The position numbers were made by a program, and so were the translations under genes. The notes under the pieces are model-generated. The model was not told the origin of the DNA and ran no database searches. It was given only the letters and a program-made list of their open reading frames with translations. From a virus, in IMG/VR virus record IMGVR_UViG_3300031825_000018, positions 1 through 49,734 of that record: 49,734 nt of DNA, one strand, 5' to 3'. Numbering within the stretch: position 1 is the first letter of the stretch; the number at the start of each line of letters is the position of its first letter. Positions 6,501 through 34,612 of this stretch are shown here, piece by piece.

Positions 6501-6701
6501 ATGGCAGCCCCCAAGGCCAACCTCGCGGACAAGCCGGACGCGATGACCACCCAGGATGCGGCCGACGTGCTCGGTATCTGCGAGAAGCAGGTCCGCACGC
6601 TGATACGGCGCAAGGAGCTGCCCTCCCTCAAGCTGGGCCGCCGCATCATCATCCCCAAGGCCAAGCTCGCCGCGCTGCTCGGCGTGGGCAAGGAGGCGTA
6701 A
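6501..6701 (+). CDS. Excisionase-family DNA-binding protein (HTH_17 type)
   Basis: The 66-aa protein contains MTTQDAADVLGICEKQVRTL then IRRKELPSLKLGRRIIIPKA, the typical layout of MerR-like excisionase-family winged HTH proteins: an HTH followed by a beta-wing with a conserved arginine. Such proteins act as Xis factors or transcription regulators. The arm-type sites at the prophage ends would allow an Xis role, which is inference. The ATG at 6501 has GGGAGGGA upstream. Confidence 0.78.
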   Translation: MAAPKANLADKPDAMTTQDAADVLGICEKQVRTLIRRKELPSLKLGRRIIIPKAKLAALLGVGKEA

Positions 6702-6704
6702 CCC

Positions 6705-6935
6705 ATGCGCCGTCATCCCCAGGCCCACTACGCGGACCTCCTCCGCGACTACTGCCGCCAGGCCGGCACCCTCTCCCTCATCCGCGCGTACTACCGCGAC
6801 CGCGCCGTCGAGAGCCAGCGGCACACGCTCACCGAGATCGAGCGCGACGCCTGCCGCAACCTGCGCTCCCTTTTCGAAGCCCTGGCCCCACCCGGTGCCA
6901 GAAACAGCGAAAGCCCCCACCTGCCCACCAGGTGA
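6705..6935 (+). CDS. Hypothetical early protein
   Basis: The 76-aa helical, Arg-rich protein has no motif I recognise. AGGAGG stands 9 bases before the ATG, and it begins 3 bases after the excisionase-like gene. Its stop codon lies inside the following terminator hairpin, so ribosomes finishing this gene would cover the 5' arm and part of the loop. Confidence 0.6.
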   Translation: MRRHPQAHYADLLRDYCRQAGTLSLIRAYYRDRAVESQRHTLTEIERDACRNLRSLFEALAPPGARNSESPHLPTR

Positions 6936-9301: not shown

Positions 9302-12300
9302 ATGCCGCTACTTCCTCACCACCTCGAAATGTTGAAGGCGTCCGGGCTTACGGACGCGGTGATCGAGGCCCGGGGTTACTGGTCGTGTTCCAGCAAAACG
9401 GAGCTGCGCGGCAAAGGCTTCGCGGGCTCCCAGGTCCACACCATCAACGCCGAAAAGCCCGCCCTTATGCTGCCGGTCTACCGCGCCGGTATCACGGAGC
9501 CCGTCTACCACCAGATGCGGCCGGACAGCCCCCGCACGCGAGACGGTAAGGCCCTCAAGTACGAAACGCCCAAGGGAGCCAAGCCGGTCGTCGATGTGCC
9601 CCCCGGCGCCCGCGACTGGATCGGCGACCCCCAGCGCACGCTCTACATTACCGAAGGCAGCAAAAAGGCGGATGCCGGCGTCAGTCATGGCCTCTGCTGT
9701 GTAGACATCCTCGGCGTCTACGGGTTCCGCGGCACCAACGAGTTCGGAGGCCGTACGGCCCTGGGTGACTGGGAGTCCTTCGCGTTCAACGCGCAGCGTG
9801 CCATCTACATCGTGTTCGACAGCGACGTGTCCCTCAAAAAGGACGTCCACCATGCAATGGTGCGGCTCAAGGGGCTCCTGCTCTCCCGCGGTGCGGAGGA
9901 TGTGCGTTTTGTCTACCTGGAGCCGAACGAGAAAGGGGAGAAGGTCGGTCTGGATGACTTCCTCCTGACCTGCAAGCGCGGCGAGGCACAATGGCAACTC
10001 CAGGTTCGGGCGCGGCCGGATGCGCTACCGTTCCCCAGTGACCAAGAGGACGAAGGCGCCGATCCGGACGCCCACGAGCGCCGCCAGTACCAGTACGGGA
10101 ACGGTGGCACCTGGTGGTTCAAAGACAGCCAGCGTATCCGTCTTGCTAACGGACACTGGCGCATCCTGGAAGACGTGGTGCAGGATGACGGCACCGAGGA
10201 GCGGGTCCGGGTCTACGCGCTGGAAGGCTACGTCGATCTCAACGGCAACAGCCGCCACCCCCGGCGCTTCACCGTTCGCGCCGAGAAGTTCGACGCCATG
10301 GACTGGGTCCGCGAGAACTTCGGCGCCGCCGCCATCCTCTCCCCCGGCGCCGGTACCAAAGAGCGCCTGCGCCACGCCATCCAGCTCCTCTCCGGCGAGG
10401 TGGAGGAGCGCACCGCCTACACGCACACCGGTTGGCGCAAGATCGAGGATGAGTGGGTCTACCTCCACGCAGACGGCGCCATCGGTCCCCAGGGCTCCGT
10501 GGAGGGCATCCGGGCGGAAGTCGCCACCATGTCCCGCTACGCGCTGCCGGAGCCGCCGGAGGGGGAGGAGCTGAAGGAGGCCGTCCGCCGCTCCCTCGCG
10601 TTCCTGGACCTTTCGGAGCGCGCCCAGACCTGGCCGCTGCTCGCCGCCATCTACGCGGCGCCCCTGGCCGGGTTCCTGCCGGCGGACTTCGTCCTCTGGA
10701 TCCAGGGCGAAACCGGCAGCCGCAAGAGCTCCGCCGCGAAGCTCGCCCTCAACCACTTCGGCACCTTCGAGCGCACGGCGCCGTTCCCCGCCAACTTCGA
10801 CAGCACGGCCAACGCGGTGGAGTACAGCCTCTTCCTCGCGAAGGACGCCCCCAACGTCATCGACGACTACAACCCCGCCAACAACGCCAAGGATCAGCAG
10901 AAGCAAGACGCCGTCGCCCACCGCATCCTCAGCGCGGTGGGCGATCTCCGTACCCGCGCCCGGATGAACTCGGACGCGGAGGTCAAGAGCAGCAAGATTC
11001 CGCGCTGCATGGCCATCGTCACGGCAGAACTGGATCCGCCCGGAGCGCAGAGCCGCATCGCCCGCGCCTTCGTCACGGACTGGACCCGCGCCGGCGTCCG
11101 CCTGGACCGCCTCACCCGGGCCCAGCAAGACGACGCTCCCCACTACGGCCTCGCCATGGCCGGCTATTTGCGGTTTCTGGCCCCGCAGATCGACAAGCTG
11201 AAGAAGAGCCTGCCCCAGAGCGTGCGGAAGGAAGCGGAGCGGATGCCGCCCTCCCACGGCCGCATCCAGGAAGCCGGCGCCAAGCTCTATATCGGCGCGG
11301 CCGGCTTCCTGCAGTTCGCGGTCAACGTGGGCGCCCTCACCGCCGTGGAGCAGCGCGCGCTGCTCACCGAGGCCTGGAAGGTCTTTGCCTACTACGCGGA
11401 GCGCACCGGCGCCGCCCAGGCAGAGCGCAAACCGGCCCTGCTCTTCATCGAATACCTCCGCGCGATGCTGGTGAAGGGGCAGGTCTACATCGCGGAGCGC
11501 AAGAGCGGTCTCTGTCCGGACGGCGAGCCCGGCCGCTGGGGTTACCAGCCCGCTCGCGGCCACGACAGCGAGCCCCAACCCCGCCCCGGCGCCGTCAAGA
11601 TCGGCTGGGTCGACCTGGACAAAGGCGAGCTGACGTTAGAGAGCACCGTCGCGCACGAGCAGATCACCAGCTACTCCCAGAAGGCCGGGATCCACCTGGT
11701 CAACAGCAAGCGGAACATGGGCGAGGCCCTGGATCGGGAAGGCCTCCTCGTGCGCAAGTACCCGGACCGGTGGGACGCCAACATCTGGGCCGAGGGCGGC
11801 AAGCATTGGTGCTGGGTGTTCAGCGTCAACATCCTGCCTGGCGGCGGCGCGGATGACGATTCTGGGCCGTTCTCTCCGCTTGACGCGGGCGCGTTCTCAC
11901 CTAATGAGGGACTCGGTTCCGAGAGCGCGTGCACGCACCCCGTTTTTTCAGGGGGGGATGTAGTTTCTGGAGGAACTGGAGGAACTGGAGGAGCGCTGCG
12001 TAATGGTGCGATTTCACACAGCGCTTCCAGGCACGAAAGTTCTCCTCCAGTTTCTCCTCCAGAAAGGATTGATTCTGGAGGAGAGTTGTTGAGCCTTTCG
12101 CAACAAACGGGTTTCTCCTCCAGAATGCCCTCCAGTTCCTCCGGCCAGTTGGAGGAAAGAACGGGAACGGAAACGGCGGCTTCCAGGCACGAGAACCCGC
12201 CGGCAAGTGCACAAAACGGGGCTTCTCCTCCACTCCTCCAGAATGGAACACATCCCCCCCTGCCAGGTGGGGAGCGCACGCGCGTTGTTTCCGCCTCTCA

Positions 12301-13972
12301 ACTGCCCGCGCTGATCGAGAAACTGGCCGCGGCGCCGGAGTTGGGGATCGATACGGAGACCACCGGCCTAAACCCTCGGCAGGATCGCGTGCGGCTGCTC
12401 ACGCTGTCCATCCCCGGGCAAACCTGGCTCGTGGACTGCTTCGAGGTCGATCCTCGCCCGCTCTTCCCCGTGCTCGCGGACCGCACCCTCACCGGCCATA
12501 ACCTCAGCTTCGACCTGGAGTTCCTCTGGTCGCTCGGCTTCCGCCCCGGTCGCTCGGAGTGCACCATGCTCCTCGCGCAGCTCCTCTCCGCCTCCGGCAG
12601 CGAGACGCGGAAGGGCTGGCATTCCCTCGCGCAGGTCACCCAGCGCACCCTGGGTATCGAGCTGCCGAAGACGGAGCAAAAGTCCAACTGGGCCGGCCCG
12701 CTCTCCAACGACCAGTGGGACTACGCCGCGCGAGACGGCGAGGTCCTGTTGCCGCTGCGCGCCGGGCTCCTGGCGGAGATCGCCGCCGCCGGCATGGGCA
12801 ACTCCGCGCAGATCGAGAGCCGCTGCCTGCCCGCGCTGGTCTGGATGTCCACCGCCGGCGTCCCGTTCCTGCCGGAGCCCTGGCAGGAGCTGGCCGCCGA
12901 GGCCGCGGCGGACGCCGAGCGCCTGCGCGCGGAGCTGGATCAGCTCGCACCCGAAGCGCCGGAGCTGCTCTCCCTCGGCACCGGTTGGAAGTGGGATTCC
13001 CCGGACATCGTGAAGCGCGTCTTCCAGCTCCTCGACATCGAGCTGAAGAGCACCGCCGACGACGTGCTCGCGCAGATCGATCACCCTGTCGCGGACCTGC
13101 TCCGGAAGTACCGGGACGCCACCGGCCGCGTCTCCCGCTTCGGCCTCAACTGGCTGGCCTGCCGCGAAGGCGACCGGCTCTTCACCGATTGGCGACAGCT
13201 CGGCAGCCGGGCCGGCCGGATGAGCTGCAGCGAGCCCCCGGTACAGCAGATGTCCCGGGATCTCCGGTACCGCGCCTGCATCGCCGCCCATCCGGGCCGC
13301 GTGCTGGTCAAGGCGGACTACTCGCAGATCGAGCTCCGGATCGCGGCCAAGATCGCGGCGGATAAGCGAATGCTGCAGGCGTACGCCGAGGGCACGGACC
13401 TCCACACCCTCACCGCCAGCACGCTCATGGGCCGCGACTTCCACGATGCGGCGGAGAAGAAGTCCGCCCGGCAGCTCGCGAAGGCCGTGAACTTCGGCCT
13501 GCTCTACGGCATGGGCGCCGCCACGCTCCGCGGCTACGCCCGCCACAGCTACGGCGTGGAGATGACGGAGATCCAGGCCGCGGACCACCGCCGCAAGTGG
13601 TTCCGCCTCTACAAAGGGATCTCCGCTTGGCACCGCTCCCAATCGGAAGGCGCCATCGAAACCCGCACCCTCGCCGGCCGCCGCCGCAAAGACGTGAGCT
13701 GGTTCACCCAGAAGCTCAACAGCCCCGTGCAGGGCACCGGCGCGGACGGCCTGAAGCGCGCGCTCGCCCTGCTCTGGGAGCGCCGCCACGAATGCCCCGG
13801 CGCCGTGCCGGTGATCGCCTGTCACGACGAGATCGTCGTCGAGTGCGACGCCGCCCAGGCGCCCGCGGCAGAGGCCTGGCTCCGACAGGCCATGCTCGAC
13901 GGGATGGCCCCCCTCATCCACCCCGTGCCCGTCGAGATCGAGACCCAGATCGGCCCCTCCTGGGCCGGCTAA
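9302..13972 (+). CDS. Fused replication protein: DUF3854/TOPRIM, ATPase and family A DNA polymerase
   Basis: The 1556-aa chain holds most of a replisome. Residues 1-230 match the DUF3854/TOPRIM type (TLYITEGSKK with E118, then YIVFDSD). A P-loop ATPase of the DUF927/D5 kind follows, with GETGSRKSS at 469-477 and NVIDDY near 518; the glycine before the P-loop lysine is arginine. A low-complexity linker (about 855-997) comes next. Then a DnaQ-like 3'-5' exonuclease (GIDTETTGL near 1015, NLSFDLEFL, YAARDGE) and a complete PolA domain: DYSQIELR near 1338, KAVNFGLLYG near 1396, CHDEIVVE near 1508. The frame is open throughout. Ribosome site before the ATG is weak. The linker DNA carries origin-like repeats. 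Confidence 0.9.
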   Translation: MPLLPHHLEMLKASGLTDAVIEARGYWSCSSKTELRGKGFAGSQVHTINAEKPALMLPVYRAGITEPVYHQMRPDSPRTRDGKALKYETPKGAKPVVDVPPGARDWIGDPQRTLYITEGSKKADAGVSHGLCCVDILGVYGFRGTNEFGGRTALGDWESFAFNAQRAIYIVFDSDVSLKKDVHHAMVRLKGLLLSRGAEDVRFVYLEPNEKGEKVGLDDFLLTCKRGEAQWQLQVRARPDALPFPSDQEDEGADPDAHERRQYQYGNGGTWWFKDSQRIRLANGHWRILEDVVQDDGTEERVRVYALEGYVDLNGNSRHPRRFTVRAEKFDAMDWVRENFGAAAILSPGAGTKERLRHAIQLLSGEVEERTAYTHTGWRKIEDEWVYLHADGAIGPQGSVEGIRAEVATMSRYALPEPPEGEELKEAVRRSLAFLDLSERAQTWPLLAAIYAAPLAGFLPADFVLWIQGETGSRKSSAAKLALNHFGTFERTAPFPANFDSTANAVEYSLFLAKDAPNVIDDYNPANNAKDQQKQDAVAHRILSAVGDLRTRARMNSDAEVKSSKIPRCMAIVTAELDPPGAQSRIARAFVTDWTRAGVRLDRLTRAQQDDAPHYGLAMAGYLRFLAPQIDKLKKSLPQSVRKEAERMPPSHGRIQEAGAKLYIGAAGFLQFAVNVGALTAVEQRALLTEAWKVFAYYAERTGAAQAERKPALLFIEYLRAMLVKGQVYIAERKSGLCPDGEPGRWGYQPARGHDSEPQPRPGAVKIGWVDLDKGELTLESTVAHEQITSYSQKAGIHLVNSKRNMGEALDREGLLVRKYPDRWDANIWAEGGKHWCWVFSVNILPGGGADDDSGPFSPLDAGAFSPNEGLGSESACTHPVFSGGDVVSGGTGGTGGALRNGAISHSASRHESSPPVSPPERIDSGGELLSLSQQTGFSSRMPSSSSGQLEERTGTETAASRHENPPASAQNGASPPLLQNGTHPPLPGGERTRVVSASQLPALIEKLAAAPELGIDTETTGLNPRQDRVRLLTLSIPGQTWLVDCFEVDPRPLFPVLADRTLTGHNLSFDLEFLWSLGFRPGRSECTMLLAQLLSASGSETRKGWHSLAQVTQRTLGIELPKTEQKSNWAGPLSNDQWDYAARDGEVLLPLRAGLLAEIAAAGMGNSAQIESRCLPALVWMSTAGVPFLPEPWQELAAEAAADAERLRAELDQLAPEAPELLSLGTGWKWDSPDIVKRVFQLLDIELKSTADDVLAQIDHPVADLLRKYRDATGRVSRFGLNWLACREGDRLFTDWRQLGSRAGRMSCSEPPVQQMSRDLRYRACIAAHPGRVLVKADYSQIELRIAAKIAADKRMLQAYAEGTDLHTLTASTLMGRDFHDAAEKKSARQLAKAVNFGLLYGMGAATLRGYARHSYGVEMTEIQAADHRRKWFRLYKGISAWHRSQSEGAIETRTLAGRRRKDVSWFTQKLNSPVQGTGADGLKRALALLWERRHECPGAVPVIACHDEIVVECDAAQAPAAEAWLRQAMLDGMAPLIHPVPVEIETQIGPSWAG
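11967..12241. other. Putative replication origin: CTGGAGGA iteron cluster
   Basis: Exact CTGGAGGA copies lie at 11967-11974, 11976-11983, 11985-11992 (9-bp period) and 12075-12082. Exact inverse copies lie at 12043-12050, 12055-12062, 12116-12123 and 12234-12241. One-mismatch copies are at 12128-12135, 12137-12144, 12149-12156 and 12226-12233. A 14-bp direct repeat starts at 12023 and 12179. The stretch is less GC-rich than its surroundings. Lambda places its origin iterons inside gene O in the same way. The origin role is inferred. Confidence 0.5.
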
Positions 13973-14004
13973 CGACCTACGGTCACTTACGAAAGGAGAA
14001 TCTG

Positions 14005-14574
14005 ATGGAATTCACCACCGCTACCGAACTCGGCCCCGGCCACTGGGAGCTGCTTCCGCTCAACCCGGAAGGTCAGCGCCTCTTCCTGGTGTTCGACCGG
14101 GACACCGCCGGAGAAGAGCAGGCCCGAAACCTGGCTCTCGCGCTGCTCTCGCAGGCCGCTCAGCCGCGACCGACCACGGATGCGGAAATGCGGCGGACGG
14201 CAGAGCACTTCGTCGCTTGCCTGCGGGCGATGTGGCACGCCGGGGAGATTTGTCTTCGGGATCGGCTTACCGGCGCGCCCTACTACGCCAACACGGAGCG
14301 GCCGGACGCCTTGGCCGTTGGTTGGCTGGATACAGTCCCGGATCGGGTCTACCTTAGCCCGGAAGTCACACACTGCACGTTGCAGACAGCACACTCGGAG
14401 CACCGGATGGATGTTGCGATTACCCTGAGAGCACTAGGCCGCTGCCTCGAACAGGCGGAGCTGCTCGTCGGGTGTACCCCAGGCTTCCAAACGCCTACCG
14501 TGCGCGTGGAAAACCTATGGCAGCGCGTCTGGGCCTTCGAAGCAACGACCCTCTTCCCCGACCTCACCGCCTGA
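14005..14574 (+). CDS. Hypothetical protein downstream of the polymerase
   Basis: The 189-aa acidic, soluble protein has no motif I recognise. ATG at 14005 follows AAGGAGA at ideal spacing, 32 bases after the replication gene stop, so it is co-transcribed with it. A perfect hairpin follows. It may be an accessory replication protein, by position only. Confidence 0.58.
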   Translation: MEFTTATELGPGHWELLPLNPEGQRLFLVFDRDTAGEEQARNLALALLSQAAQPRPTTDAEMRRTAEHFVACLRAMWHAGEICLRDRLTGAPYYANTERPDALAVGWLDTVPDRVYLSPEVTHCTLQTAHSEHRMDVAITLRALGRCLEQAELLVGCTPGFQTPTVRVENLWQRVWAFEATTLFPDLTA

Positions 14575-14645: not shown

Positions 14646-16814
14646 ATGACCACTCAACAAAAGCATACCTTGCCCGGGCTGGACTACGGAGTCCGCGTCG
14701 CCTGGACGGATAACGACGGCCAGGAGCAAGAGGACGAAGTCCGCTCCTGGAGTGACAAGAAGATCAGCACGATCCGGGGCAGCGTCCGCTGGGACGCGAA
14801 GAACCTGCGCGTCCTCCCGCCCACGGAGCTGCCCGCCGTTGATGCCGCGCGGCATACCCCCCGCGACGGCGAAACCCGCCCCCTGCCGCTGCGCAAGATC
14901 GCCCCGTCGTCACTCAACCCCCGCAAAACGTTCGTGCTCGAAACGCTGCAGGGCCTGGCGGACAGCATCCGGGAAACCGGCCTCATCCAGTCCCTCGTGG
15001 TTCGGCCCGCGAAAGGCTGGCACGTGGTGCCGTGCCGGAGTAACCAGATCGACGGTTGGATGGTGCAGAACATCGGCTTCAAAACCGGGCACTGGGACAT
15101 CCAGGCGTTCTACGTGCCCCATTTCTTCGCGAACCGCGAGGAGGCGGAAGCATACATCCCGGAGTGGGAGCTGATCGCCGGCGAGCGCCGCTTCCGCGCG
15201 TCCCACCTCGCCGAGCTCAAAGAGGTCGAGTGCAAGATCCGGCTCGGCCTCGACGATCCCGCCGCCTACCGGATGATGGTCGATGAGAACGAGGAACGGG
15301 AAGAGGTCAACCCCATCGATGCCGCCCTGTCCCTGCACCAGATGCTCGCGCAGGGGGTGAGCCAGCGGCGCCTGGCGGAAGCGCTGGGAACGAAGAGCCA
15401 ATCCAAGATCAGCCGCATGGCCTCGCTCGTCGAGTTGCCGGAGCCCGTCAAGGAGCTGGGCCGCGCTGGCAAACTCCAGGCCTCTCACCTGGAGCGCCTC
15501 GCGAAGTGGACCGCCCGGCCGGATCTGTGCGCTGCGATCGCGGAGATCGCCGCCGAGCGGGGCGCGTCGGTGCGGGACCTGGAGAAAGGTCTCCCGTTCT
15601 CGGATGAGCCGGCGGTGAAGAAGCTGGTCACGGCGCAGTTCTACCACACCTCCGTGGAATTCGACTTCGCCTCCGCCCAGAAGGCACACCCCGGAGCCTT
15701 TGTGCCCGCCCAGTATGACGGCTGGTTCTACTGCGTGGATAAGCGGCTCTTTAACCGGCTGCAGCAGGAAGGGCGGCAGGCGAAGGCCGCGGCGGATGCC
15801 GAGCGCCGAGCCGCGGCCCTGGATGGCGCCGGCCTGGAGCCGGGCGCGCATCTGCCCGAAGTGGGCTCCATGCGGAATATCGTGCAGTTGTCCCAGCACA
15901 GCCGGACGCCGAGCTGCGACTGTGAGACATGCCCCTGCCTGGTGAAGGCGTGGGATCACTGGGGGCAGAAGGTGGTGCTTGTCTGCTCCGATCCGAAGCG
16001 CTTCCAGGAACTGAAGGAGAAAGACGACCGGGCGTTAGCCGCCGCCCGAGCTGCGGCGGCGGAAGATGCTTACGAGCAGGTGCTCGCCCACGTGCGCGAA
16101 ACGACGGAGATCTCCGGCCGCGACCTGCTGTATCTCACCACTGTCGCCCATGATAGCCTGCCGGAAGCCGCCAAGCTGCTCGGCCTGGAAGTGCCCCCGT
16201 GCACGCACGAGACGAAGTACTTGCTGGCGTCCATCCCGCCCCTCGAACTCCGTAGGCTCCTCTTGCTCAGCCAGGCGCTCCACGAGCGGGAATCGCGGAT
16301 ACGTTGGAGCCGCTCGGTGGAGATGGAGCGCTATCTCGGCATCGGCCCGGAGCCTTCCGCCGCCGCGCCCACCGCGGCGGAGGCCGAACCCTGGCCCTGC
16401 CAGCGCTGCGGCGAGCTGGTCAACGCGGCGACCGTGGCGGCGCTCGACGAAGCCCGCGGCGACCGCACCTTCATCCAGGATGAGGCGGACGTGCTCCTCA
16501 CCGCGAATAGCGCCCTGTACTGCGCCGACTGCGCTCCGGACGTGGCCATCTGCCGGATCTGCGGCTGCACCGATGAGATCGGCTGCTCCGAAGGCTGCCA
16601 GTGGATCGGCGATGACCTCTGCACCGGTTGCGCCAAAAAGCTCGAGCAAGGCGACCGTAACCCCGTCACCGACGTGACCTGCTACGAATGCGGCGCCGGC
16701 CTCGATCCCCGGGAAGGACTCCTCTACACCCAGCGCGCGGGCCGCGGCGTCCACGTGTGCGAGGGCTGCAAAGCACAGGAACTGGCGGCGGTTGCGGTGG
16801 GAGGTGCTTCGTGA
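14646..16814 (+). CDS. ParB/Spo0J-like protein with zinc-ribbon C-terminus
   Basis: The 722-aa protein has a ParB N-terminal domain: LNPRKTF, LQGLADSIRETGLIQSLVVRP and later LIAGERRFRASHLAEL. About 55 residues are inserted between the last two, where most ParBs have only a few. The HTH follows (QRRLAEALGTKSQSKISRMA). The second half has Cys-rich regions: CDCETCPC, CQRCGE and CRICGCTDEIGCSEGCQW to CTGC, and a final C..C/C..C ribbon. No ParA gene is present, so partition is doubtful; such phage ParB-like proteins may act as nucleases, regulators or DNA-modification partners. TTAGGAGA precedes the ATG. Confidence 0.82.
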   Translation: MTTQQKHTLPGLDYGVRVAWTDNDGQEQEDEVRSWSDKKISTIRGSVRWDAKNLRVLPPTELPAVDAARHTPRDGETRPLPLRKIAPSSLNPRKTFVLETLQGLADSIRETGLIQSLVVRPAKGWHVVPCRSNQIDGWMVQNIGFKTGHWDIQAFYVPHFFANREEAEAYIPEWELIAGERRFRASHLAELKEVECKIRLGLDDPAAYRMMVDENEEREEVNPIDAALSLHQMLAQGVSQRRLAEALGTKSQSKISRMASLVELPEPVKELGRAGKLQASHLERLAKWTARPDLCAAIAEIAAERGASVRDLEKGLPFSDEPAVKKLVTAQFYHTSVEFDFASAQKAHPGAFVPAQYDGWFYCVDKRLFNRLQQEGRQAKAAADAERRAAALDGAGLEPGAHLPEVGSMRNIVQLSQHSRTPSCDCETCPCLVKAWDHWGQKVVLVCSDPKRFQELKEKDDRALAAARAAAAEDAYEQVLAHVRETTEISGRDLLYLTTVAHDSLPEAAKLLGLEVPPCTHETKYLLASIPPLELRRLLLLSQALHERESRIRWSRSVEMERYLGIGPEPSAAAPTAAEAEPWPCQRCGELVNAATVAALDEARGDRTFIQDEADVLLTANSALYCADCAPDVAICRICGCTDEIGCSEGCQWIGDDLCTGCAKKLEQGDRNPVTDVTCYECGAGLDPREGLLYTQRAGRGVHVCEGCKAQELAAVAVGGAS

Positions 16815-32283: not shown

Positions 32284-32699
32284 CAGGGCACCACTTCCGC
32301 CGGCGGCTTCTCTTCCTGGAAGATCTGGAAGACGCGCTCGTTATTGAGTCGACCTCCGCGCGAGGGCCGCAGGCGCGGCTGCCCCATGATCCGGTGCACG
32401 GTCCCGTAGTTCGGATCGTCCAGGGTCACGTCGACCACCAGGTCACCGCTCCGGATCCCGACCGACACTTCGACCTTCAGCCCGTCCTCCGTCAGGGCGC
32501 TGCGCCGCTTCGTACGGCCCACGCCCGTCTTGTCGGAGTCGTTCTGGGTGTAGAAGTAGAGCGCCGGCACGGACGTGAGCCCCGGCACCACCGCGAAGGT
32601 GGAATCGGAGACTTCCTTGTCCGCGCCGGTAGATCGGCCCGCCCGGTAGACCTTCACGCGGGAGCGGTAGAACTGTCGTTGTCGCCAGGTGAGGGCCAT
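32283..32699 (-). CDS. Head-tail joining (stopper-like) protein
   Basis: The 138-aa beta-rich product begins MALTWRQRQFYRSRVKVYRA and contains VDVTLDDPNYGTVHRIMGQP, fitting head-closure proteins of siphoviruses. The assignment rests mainly on position after the adaptor candidate. Confidence 0.55.
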   Translation of the reverse strand: MALTWRQRQFYRSRVKVYRAGRSTGADKEVSDSTFAVVPGLTSVPALYFYTQNDSDKTGVGRTKRRSALTEDGLKVEVSVGIRSGDLVVDVTLDDPNYGTVHRIMGQPRLRPSRGGRLNNERVFQIFQEEKPPAEVVP

Positions 32700-33598: not shown

Positions 33599-34612
33599 CT
33601 AGACCGACATCTCCACCACGCCGGAGCCGAAGAAGATCACCGGCCCGCCGTTGTGGCCGTCGTGCACTTCCACGCGGCGCGGGACCTCGCGGTCCATGGT
33701 GTCGATCACCTTCGTGTAGGCGCCGGGGCCCATGTTCGGGTTGTTGGCGTTCCGGGTCATCCGGTACTCGCCGAGCGGCTGGCCACCCGGGCGCGCGCCG
33801 AACACCACCACCTTGCTGTTCGGGATGTACAGCTGCGGCGTGCCGGCGTCGTCCAGGTAGGTGTCATCGTAGATCTCGATCTGCGGGAGATCGTTGTCGA
33901 AGAGCACCTTGTTGATCTGATCCAGCTCCAGGATGTTGACCGAGGGCGCCACCCGCTTGCCGCCGATGTCGTTGGCGTTGGTGTTGTTCATGGCGTAGTT
34001 GAACGTGGTCTGGTTCATGTACGCCGTGGCCTGCCGGCCGAAGGAAACGCTGTGCCCGCGAGCCAGCAGCTTCACCGCGCGGAAGTCCTTGATCGGCGCC
34101 GCGGTCGCCACCGTCGCCCACGCCACGCCCGCCGAGTAGGTCTGGATGGTGTAGCTGTCCGTGTGCACGATGCCGTTCGGTCCGGAGACCGAGAACGTGC
34201 CGCGCGCACAGTTCCAGGCGATCAGCTCGATCCGGTCCACGCGGCGGCCGAGGAGCATGTCCTGCTGCTCGGTCACCAGGTCGGTGAGGTCCACCGGCTG
34301 GCCCCAGGTGCCCAGCTCGCGCCGGCGGGTGAGTTCCAGCTCATCCAGGGGCACGAACTCCCCGTAGACGCCCGGCTCCGCCATGTAGCGCTTCGCGCCC
34401 ACGCGGTTCACGCGCTGCGGCGCGCCCCCAAGCCCGCGGAGCTGCTGCAGACCGGTGTAGTTGTCCTTCTGCTCCCACTGGAGGAGGTGGTTGTTGACCG
34501 GGACGATGGGGAAGTGCTTGAAGATGGGCCGGTCCTGCGTGAGGCGCGGCAGTTTGTCCTGCTCGATCCGCCGCAGTTCCGACGCGGTGGGATAAATGAA
34601 ATCCTGGCTCAT
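33599..34612 (-). CDS. Major capsid protein, lambda gpE family
   Basis: The 337-aa protein has the gpE-type layout: an N-terminal arm (FPIVPVNNHLLQWEQKDNYT), a central EFVPLDELELTRRRELGTWG, and a C-terminal VFGARPGGQPLGEYR and PRRVEVHDGHNGGPVIF. The length (lambda 341 aa) agrees. It follows the decoration gene exactly as E follows D in lambda. This is the most abundant virion protein. Confidence 0.9.
   Translation of the reverse strand: MSQDFIYPTASELRRIEQDKLPRLTQDRPIFKHFPIVPVNNHLLQWEQKDNYTGLQQLRGLGGAPQRVNRVGAKRYMAEPGVYGEFVPLDELELTRRRELGTWGQPVDLTDLVTEQQDMLLGRRVDRIELIAWNCARGTFSVSGPNGIVHTDSYTIQTYSAGVAWATVATAAPIKDFRAVKLLARGHSVSFGRQATAYMNQTTFNYAMNNTNANDIGGKRVAPSVNILELDQINKVLFDNDLPQIEIYDDTYLDDAGTPQLYIPNSKVVVFGARPGGQPLGEYRMTRNANNPNMGPGAYTKVIDTMDREVPRRVEVHDGHNGGPVIFFGSGVVEMSV

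Follow-up and report, generated by a model that had tools for sequence, protein, structure and literature searches.

A putative replication origin within the reading frame of a helicase–polymerase fusion gene in a likely prophage

Introduction

Why would a replication gene carry, in the DNA that joins two of its domains, a dense cluster of one octamer in both orientations? The question is raised by IMG/VR virus record IMGVR_UViG_3300031825_000018, of which the whole analysed stretch of 49,734 nucleotides is called the window here. The window is likely an integrated phage because it carries a tRNA-Leu at 39–125 with an adjoining integrase frame. One of its genes stays open from a helicase through a linker to a polymerase, so that helicase and exonuclease/polymerase are encoded in one frame. 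A first-pass annotation, made from the letters alone, read the octamers in the linker as an origin of the kind that lambda and its relatives embed in a replication gene.

Several precedents bear on this reading. SaPI Rep uses its C-terminal domain to recognise iterons that directly follow its gene (PMC7581432), and in Gram-positive PICIs the DNA immediately 3′ of the gene for the initiator serves as the origin (PMC6092414). Pattern 2 SCC elements combine an A-family polymerase with an initiator helicase whose binding sites, direct repeats, lie downstream of the gene that encodes it (PMC7581432), and A-family polymerase primases paired with such helicases have been described (PMC10061031). Pyrovirus encodes a DUF927 helicase–PolA fusion of 1,606 aa in OS3173 and separate proteins in other members (PMC7689252), and in lambda the protein that reads the origin iterons is encoded by the very gene that contains them (PMC3985674). 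Both the DUF927 helicase–PolA fusion and origins inside initiator genes are thus already known. A survey that covered the open literature and few subscription papers returned no description of an origin in a helicase–polymerase fusion linker, or of a family-wide placement of the kind reported below.

Materials and Methods

Single-protein searches of viral contigs with the fused protein found no relatives, and alignment searches found some. Those with the helicase part brought in 11 viral loci, 10 genome loci and then 70 viral loci. In three phyla, at least 19 of 377, 13 of 294 and 10 of 291 genomes had helicase matches, counts that are lower bounds since up to 4–5 candidates were scored per genome. 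The 163 loci with a helicase match were reduced to 102 non-redundant loci (85% identity), and 84 entered the zone test, for which the match had to score at least 200, the model had to reach to 440 and 1,250 bases of downstream DNA had to be present. Locus L004 has no helicase match, and L086 and L146 show clusters with too little downstream DNA for the test.

The test zone was the 1 kb starting 250 bases after the helicase model, and a cluster was an octamer found at least five times within 300 bp; control zones came from the same loci. The placement rule was first noticed in examples and tested afterwards, and the statistic was chosen after seeing those examples. The distance between domains in fused genes was measured from the end of the helicase model to the exonuclease match, less the unmatched start of the exonuclease.

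Results

The fused gene encodes a predicted initiator helicase

The domains detected in the 1556-aa protein are DUF3854, a DUF927-like domain, an exonuclease and a polymerase (Table 1). A model of residues 277–848 (pLDDT 87.9) has its strongest relationships in the PDB with SCCmec Cch (5dgk, Foldseek E 8 × 10−15) and SaPIbov1 Rep (8tch, E 8 × 10−11). VIA-align gives Z 22.6 over 419 residues for 8tch (rmsd 5.8) and Z 21.9 over 463 for 5dgk (rmsd 6.3), and the next entries are MCM proteins at Z 14.2. The sequence profile of the helicase agrees (E 3.4 × 10−6 for 8tch, and 8.6 × 10−5). Pfam DUF927 scores 19.8 bits on the window protein against a gathering score of 22.6, and it matches 16 of 25 alignment members at E up to 0.01 (best 3 × 10−8).

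The winged helix taken alone aligns with residues 453–558 of 8tch (Z 9.4, 101 residues, rmsd 3.2) and less closely with 439–550 of 5dgk (Z 6.2), and its Foldseek E is only 2.6 × 10−3. Helicase and winged helix, as modelled, together match the SaPIbov1 Rep/Cch (DUF927-type) initiator fold. The first iteron begins 121 bp past the end of the modelled winged-helix segment.

Immediately after the fusion comes a gene whose product is a distant copy of the winged-helix region and may regulate the sites that the helicase's own winged helix is presumed to read. Among the loci only one other frame of this kind was found, in L016, and a stand-alone copy was rejected as a general part of the system. A ParB-like protein is encoded at 14646–16811, 2.4 kb downstream of the cluster.

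Table 1. Features of the fused replication gene and of the candidate origin (positions in the window).
Feature	Position	Strand	Remarks
Fused replication gene, 1556 aa	9302–13972	+	DUF3854, MCM-like helicase, winged helix, linker, 3′-5′ exonuclease and family-A DNA polymerase
DUF3854 domain (primase-like)	9626–9967	+	Residues 109–222, Pfam E 1.7 × 10−14
MCM-like AAA+ helicase core, SaPIbov1 Rep/Cch type	10130–11548	+	Model; PDB 5dgk, 8tch; profile
C-terminal winged helix, presumed iteron reader	11429–11845	+	Model pLDDT 93.8; SaPIbov1 Rep C-terminal domain, Z 9.4
Proposed replication origin, entirely within the coding linker	11925–12283	+	Repeats, inverted arms, fold; same place in relatives
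Outer inverted arm	11925–11939	+	Partner 12269–12283, 80% complementary
13-bp arm with G7 tract (11951–11957)	11949–11961	+	Perfect inverted repeat with 12250–12262 (13/13)
Iteron 1, CTGGAGGA exact	11967–11974	+	
Iteron 2, CTGGAGGA exact	11976–11983	+	
Iteron 3, CTGGAGGA exact	11985–11992	+	
Second repeat GCTTCCAGGCACGA, copy 1	12023–12036	+	
Iteron 4, CTGGAGGA exact	12043–12050	-	
Iteron 5, CTGGAGGA exact	12055–12062	-	
Most AT-rich 50 bp of the gene, possible melting site	12058–12107	.	56% AT vs window mean 33%
Iteron 6, CTGGAGGA exact	12075–12082	+	Also Shine-Dalgarno-like GGAGGAG before in-frame TTG 12086/12089
Iteron 7, CTGGAGGA exact	12116–12123	-	
One-mismatch iteron	12128–12135	-	
One-mismatch iteron	12137–12144	-	
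One-mismatch iteron	12149–12156	+	
Second repeat GCTTCCAGGCACGA, copy 2	12179–12192	+	
One-mismatch iteron	12226–12233	-	
Iteron 8, CTGGAGGA exact	12234–12241	-	
13-bp arm with C7 tract (12254–12260)	12250–12262	-	Partner 11949–11961
Outer inverted arm	12269–12283	-	Partner 11925–11939
3′-5′ exonuclease domain	12293–12778	+	Residues 998–1159, Pfam E 9.8 × 10−24; DTETTG motif
Family-A DNA polymerase domain	13046–13966	+	Residues 1249–1555, Pfam E 8.7 × 10−54
Separate gene, distant copy of the winged-helix region	13975–14574	+	22% over 131 aa, E 2 × 10−8

The linker holds iterons that the protein sequence does not explain

Exact CTGGAGGA occurs nine times on the two strands of the window, where shuffles give a mean of 2.05 and a maximum of 7; eight copies lie at 11967–12241 and one at 34478. 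No other octamer in the window reaches eight copies within 275 bp. The first-pass annotation had counted eight exact copies in both orientations in 275 bp, of which we find four on each strand, along with a 9-bp tandem triplet (11967/11976/11985), four one-mismatch copies (12128, 12137, 12149 and 12226) and a less GC-rich composition (56.7% vs a window mean of about 67%). All of these are present, and with a single exact copy outside the cluster there is a strong local excess, which it had named as a supporting sign. The four one-mismatch copies weigh little, because such copies are frequent across the window (120 observed vs 49 expected). An expected peak of cumulative GC skew failed to appear: no extreme lies at the cluster, and the minimum is at 32526.

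In 1,000 trials each, the linker kept no more than four CTGGAGGA copies when its synonymous codons were permuted and no more than three when they were drawn by the codon use of the gene; none of 1,000 synonymous recodings reached eight. The plus-strand copies all fall in one reading frame and the minus-strand copies in all three, where they are read as SPPV/SPPE, SSRM and LLQN; therefore the peptide is not what repeats. The local excess is explained by neither protein sequence nor codon choice.

The cluster lies where it was first described, within an element that extends further than the 11967–12241 of that description. Nested inverted repeats span about 11925–12283 and enclose all of the iterons, two copies of a second repeat, GCTTCCAGGCACGA, and the most AT-rich stretch of the gene. 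As a single strand, the element folds much better than shuffled versions of it (z -6.7 for DNA, -6.6 for RNA). By eye, the surroundings of the C7-bearing arm look like the DNA that follows the clusters of L036 and L054 on their 3′ side. Iteron 6 forms a GGAGGAG a few bases before in-frame TTG codons at 12086/12089, from which a separate polymerase could start inside the proposed origin.

Relatives carry unrelated repeats at the same place

Helicase genes that end alone often have a cluster of short repeats in both orientations directly after the stop codon, each with its own core: TTGACC in L007, AGTTAG in L015, CTACCAA in L017, GGAAAC in L038 and L039, GTAACA in L054 and TGTAGA in L086. In other loci (L033, L157, L160, L161 and L162), the cluster lies within an extended coding tail. 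Other helicase–polymerase fusions carry one inside the linker (L153, L149 and L151, and more weakly L150 and L152); these fused genes come from the phylum of L018, a record titled Myxococcales. Two fused relatives, L018 and L154, lack a cluster in the linker. The exonucleases of L149, L150 and L152 read, by eye, VHSTGPD or VHSTGSD vs IDTETTG in the window, and their fused polymerases may have lost proofreading.

In the zone test, clusters of at least five octamers occurred in 15 of 84 non-redundant loci, window included, vs 18 of 815 other 1-kb zones (Fisher 2.8 × 10−8). Among the later-fetched loci, which leave out the window and those noticed first, the counts are 13/66 vs 14/563 (p 3.7 × 10−7). 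All 19 loci with at least four octamer copies fall in one half of the helicase tree, the half of 46 rows that holds the window, where 27 rows stay below four; no cluster of at least four occurs in the 38 rows of the other half. Both orientations are present in 18 of the 19 clusters, and a G or C run of at least 6 lies within 120 bp of 12 of them, vs 68 of 556 control segments (p 5 × 10−7). Seven further loci (L024, L027, L081, L151, L152, L159 and L167) show visible repeats with fewer than four octamer copies and stand outside the 19. Gain and loss of clusters on the tree need 15 changes, and 48 of 500 shuffles are as low; at that threshold, the cluster label is barely clustered on the tree beyond its absence from one half. 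A 7-mer test that requires both orientations (p 0.01) is passed by 20/46 rows in the window's half vs 2/38 in the other. It is failed by L150 (p 0.15), L152 (p 0.78) and L036, whose repeat copies all point one way.

Some loci have strong clusters elsewhere. Ten-copy octamer clusters lie upstream of the helicase gene in L029 (12–300, TGCCGACA) and L078 (4721–5020, CCCGACAA), possibly a moved origin or an operator, so not every member of the family need use this site. In L005, a Cellulosimicrobium plasmid, GCCGTGCC occurs 19 times in less than 200 bp (1196–1383) upstream of the helicase gene and near a ParA gene, and is perhaps a centromere. In L163, the nearest helicase relative of the window, a 30-bp CRISPR-like repeat occurs three times with two spacers (6565–6739 in gene orientation), starting about 90 bp past the iteron cluster.

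Linker length follows the clusters, and cores go with the winged helix in the pairs compared

Unfused genes with the cluster in frame have 167–230 aa after the helicase model (n=10), and those with the cluster downstream have 82–151 (n=11). The difference (p 6 × 10−5, counting clusters with a 7-mer p up to 0.05) is partly built in, because a longer tail is likelier to contain a cluster at a fixed distance. Among the eight fused genes, the distance from helicase to exonuclease is 234–273 aa in the window, L149, L150, L151, L152 and L153, and 140–151 aa in the two that are cluster-free, L154 and L018. The earlier proposal that the linker may exist to hold an origin gains comparative support from these longer tails and shorter cluster-free fusions, and the best reading of the sequences is that the linker exists to hold DNA sites.

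Two fusions from one genome, L149 and L150, have polymerases that are 94% identical, helicases at 51% and winged helices at 41%, and their cores differ (CTGGTCA five and zero times, CGGGGC three and 15 times, respectively). Winged helices that are 94% identical and a common core (five and three copies) occur in L149 and L152, which belong to different genomes. In this one contrast of pairs, which is not a survey, the cores therefore go with the winged helix and not with the polymerase. In the helicase tree, the window is sister to the unfused L163 (SH-aLRT 96), apart from the other fusions, but its polymerase groups with those of L149–L154 (support 93, below the 95 mark), with the L018 polymerase elsewhere.

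Discussion

A proposed captured origin and its rivals

The linker DNA at about 11925–12283 is very probably the replication origin of the prophage, captured in the reading frame. Comparison supports the placement of origin iterons inside the replication gene, as the first-pass annotation had it, since relatives of the helicase have clusters of unrelated sequence at the same place. We infer the following mechanism. The winged helix would bind the CTGGAGGA iterons in their two orientations and load the MCM-like helicase, which might form two rings; melting would take place in the AT-rich middle stretch; and the DUF3854 domain, the fused family-A polymerase or both would make and extend primers there. 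In the ancestor, as in SaPIs, the origin would have closely followed the 3′ end of the helicase gene, until a reading frame through the origin joined the helicase to the polymerase gene, so that the length and letters of the linker would be set by DNA sites.

Other roles for the sites deserve weighing. Iteron-like arrays can also act as centromeres, and with a ParB-like gene so close downstream the cluster might be a parS-like centromere, or an operator bound by that protein, and not an origin. Yet when the ParB of the window was compared by BLASTP with the locus DNA examined, the window alone among the 19 loci with clusters showed a ParB-like frame, which disfavours ParB as the reader of the iterons; the cluster lies at the same place in all 19, and its cores go with the winged helix of the helicase. 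We consider this explanation improbable. Hardly more plausible, and if anything slightly less so, is that the sites are autoregulatory, with the helicase C-terminal domain or its copy at 13975–14574 controlling transcription or translation of the polymerase part and replication starting elsewhere. The copy encoded next door and the double role of iteron 6 as a Shine-Dalgarno sequence speak for such control, but no polymerase frame follows the cluster in unfused relatives within the locus DNA examined, the other cores are unlike Shine-Dalgarno sequences and stand-alone domain copies are rare.

The perfect 13-bp inverted ends and the strong fold would also suit the in-frame arrival in the linker of a MITE-like, palindromic mobile element or of a structured RNA. 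No other copy exists in the window, however, and the phage records hold none alike: pieces matching the linker DNA cover only about 7% of its length, as by chance. An Rfam search of the element gave no match near the gathering score of any family, and relatives that keep layout and place with unrelated sequences are not expected from an insert family, all of which makes this origin of the element very unlikely. Slippage, finally, could have grown a low-complexity protein linker with repeats as its by-product; in favour of this are the 9-bp tandem spacing of the triplet and the abundance of S, G and P in the linker. But the copies run both ways and fall in more than one reading frame, synonymous recoding destroys their excess and relatives have non-coding clusters, which leaves that account barely credible. 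A replication origin captured in frame is the reading we carry forward.

Relation to known systems

The closest systems are SaPIbov1 Rep and the PICIs, which share with the window an MCM-like, DUF927-like initiator helicase, a C-terminal winged helix and short iterons that follow the helicase part at once on its 3′ side. The SaPI origin is intergenic, after the rep stop codon, whereas the proposed origin of the window lies inside a continuous frame that goes on into exonuclease and polymerase, and hence would be a variant of the SaPI/PICI origin type and not a member of it; the window protein also has DUF3854 fused N-terminally and shares 14% identity with SaPIbov1 Rep over the aligned part. 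In SaPI/PICI-type origins, two iteron sets flank an AT-rich stretch. The window has copies on both sides of its AT-rich 12058–12107, but their orientations (+++--+--) do not form two clean sets.

SCCmec type IV Cch and SaPIbov1 Rep are the two entries whose structures match the window helicase best. In the SCCmec CCPol-MP-Cch2 operon, an A-family polymerase likewise works with a repeat-binding initiator helicase; there, however, the polymerase is a separate protein, Cch2 belongs to another helicase family and the origin is intergenic. The Pyrovirus DUF927–PolA polyprotein (TOSV, TGBSV) also fuses helicase and family-A polymerase in one protein, and the text of PMC7689252 contains neither 'origin of replication' nor 'iteron'.

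The lambda origin in gene O, which the earlier annotation had invoked, likewise places iterons within the gene of the protein that reads them. That comparison holds as an analogy only, the closest systems being SaPIbov1 Rep and SCCmec Cch: lambda O is an unrelated protein and not a helicase, has four 19-bp iterons and is not fused to a polymerase, and an O-family initiator domain is not among the domains found in the window protein. The genes N15 repA and P4 alpha offer further analogies.

Implications for the helicase family

A bolder reading, which we put forward as possible though somewhat short of an even chance, is that one gene makes up a whole replicon, with initiator, helicase, primase-like domain, polymerase and origin in one frame; that its linker is a swap point where lineages exchange a winged helix together with the matching iterons and keep the polymerase; and that a recognition code can be read across the family.

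The origins of uncultured viruses are rarely located. The placement described here offers a simple rule, by which a candidate origin is sought immediately 3′ of the MCM-like helicase domain, whether in frame or not. The rule marks one in about two fifths of one large branch (19 or 20 of the 46 rows), and the elements concerned belong to several phyla. Because relatives keep layout and place with completely different iterons, the family offers natural material for studying the recognition code between winged helix and site. The window also illustrates clearly how a protein linker that looks disordered appears to follow from a function at the level of DNA.
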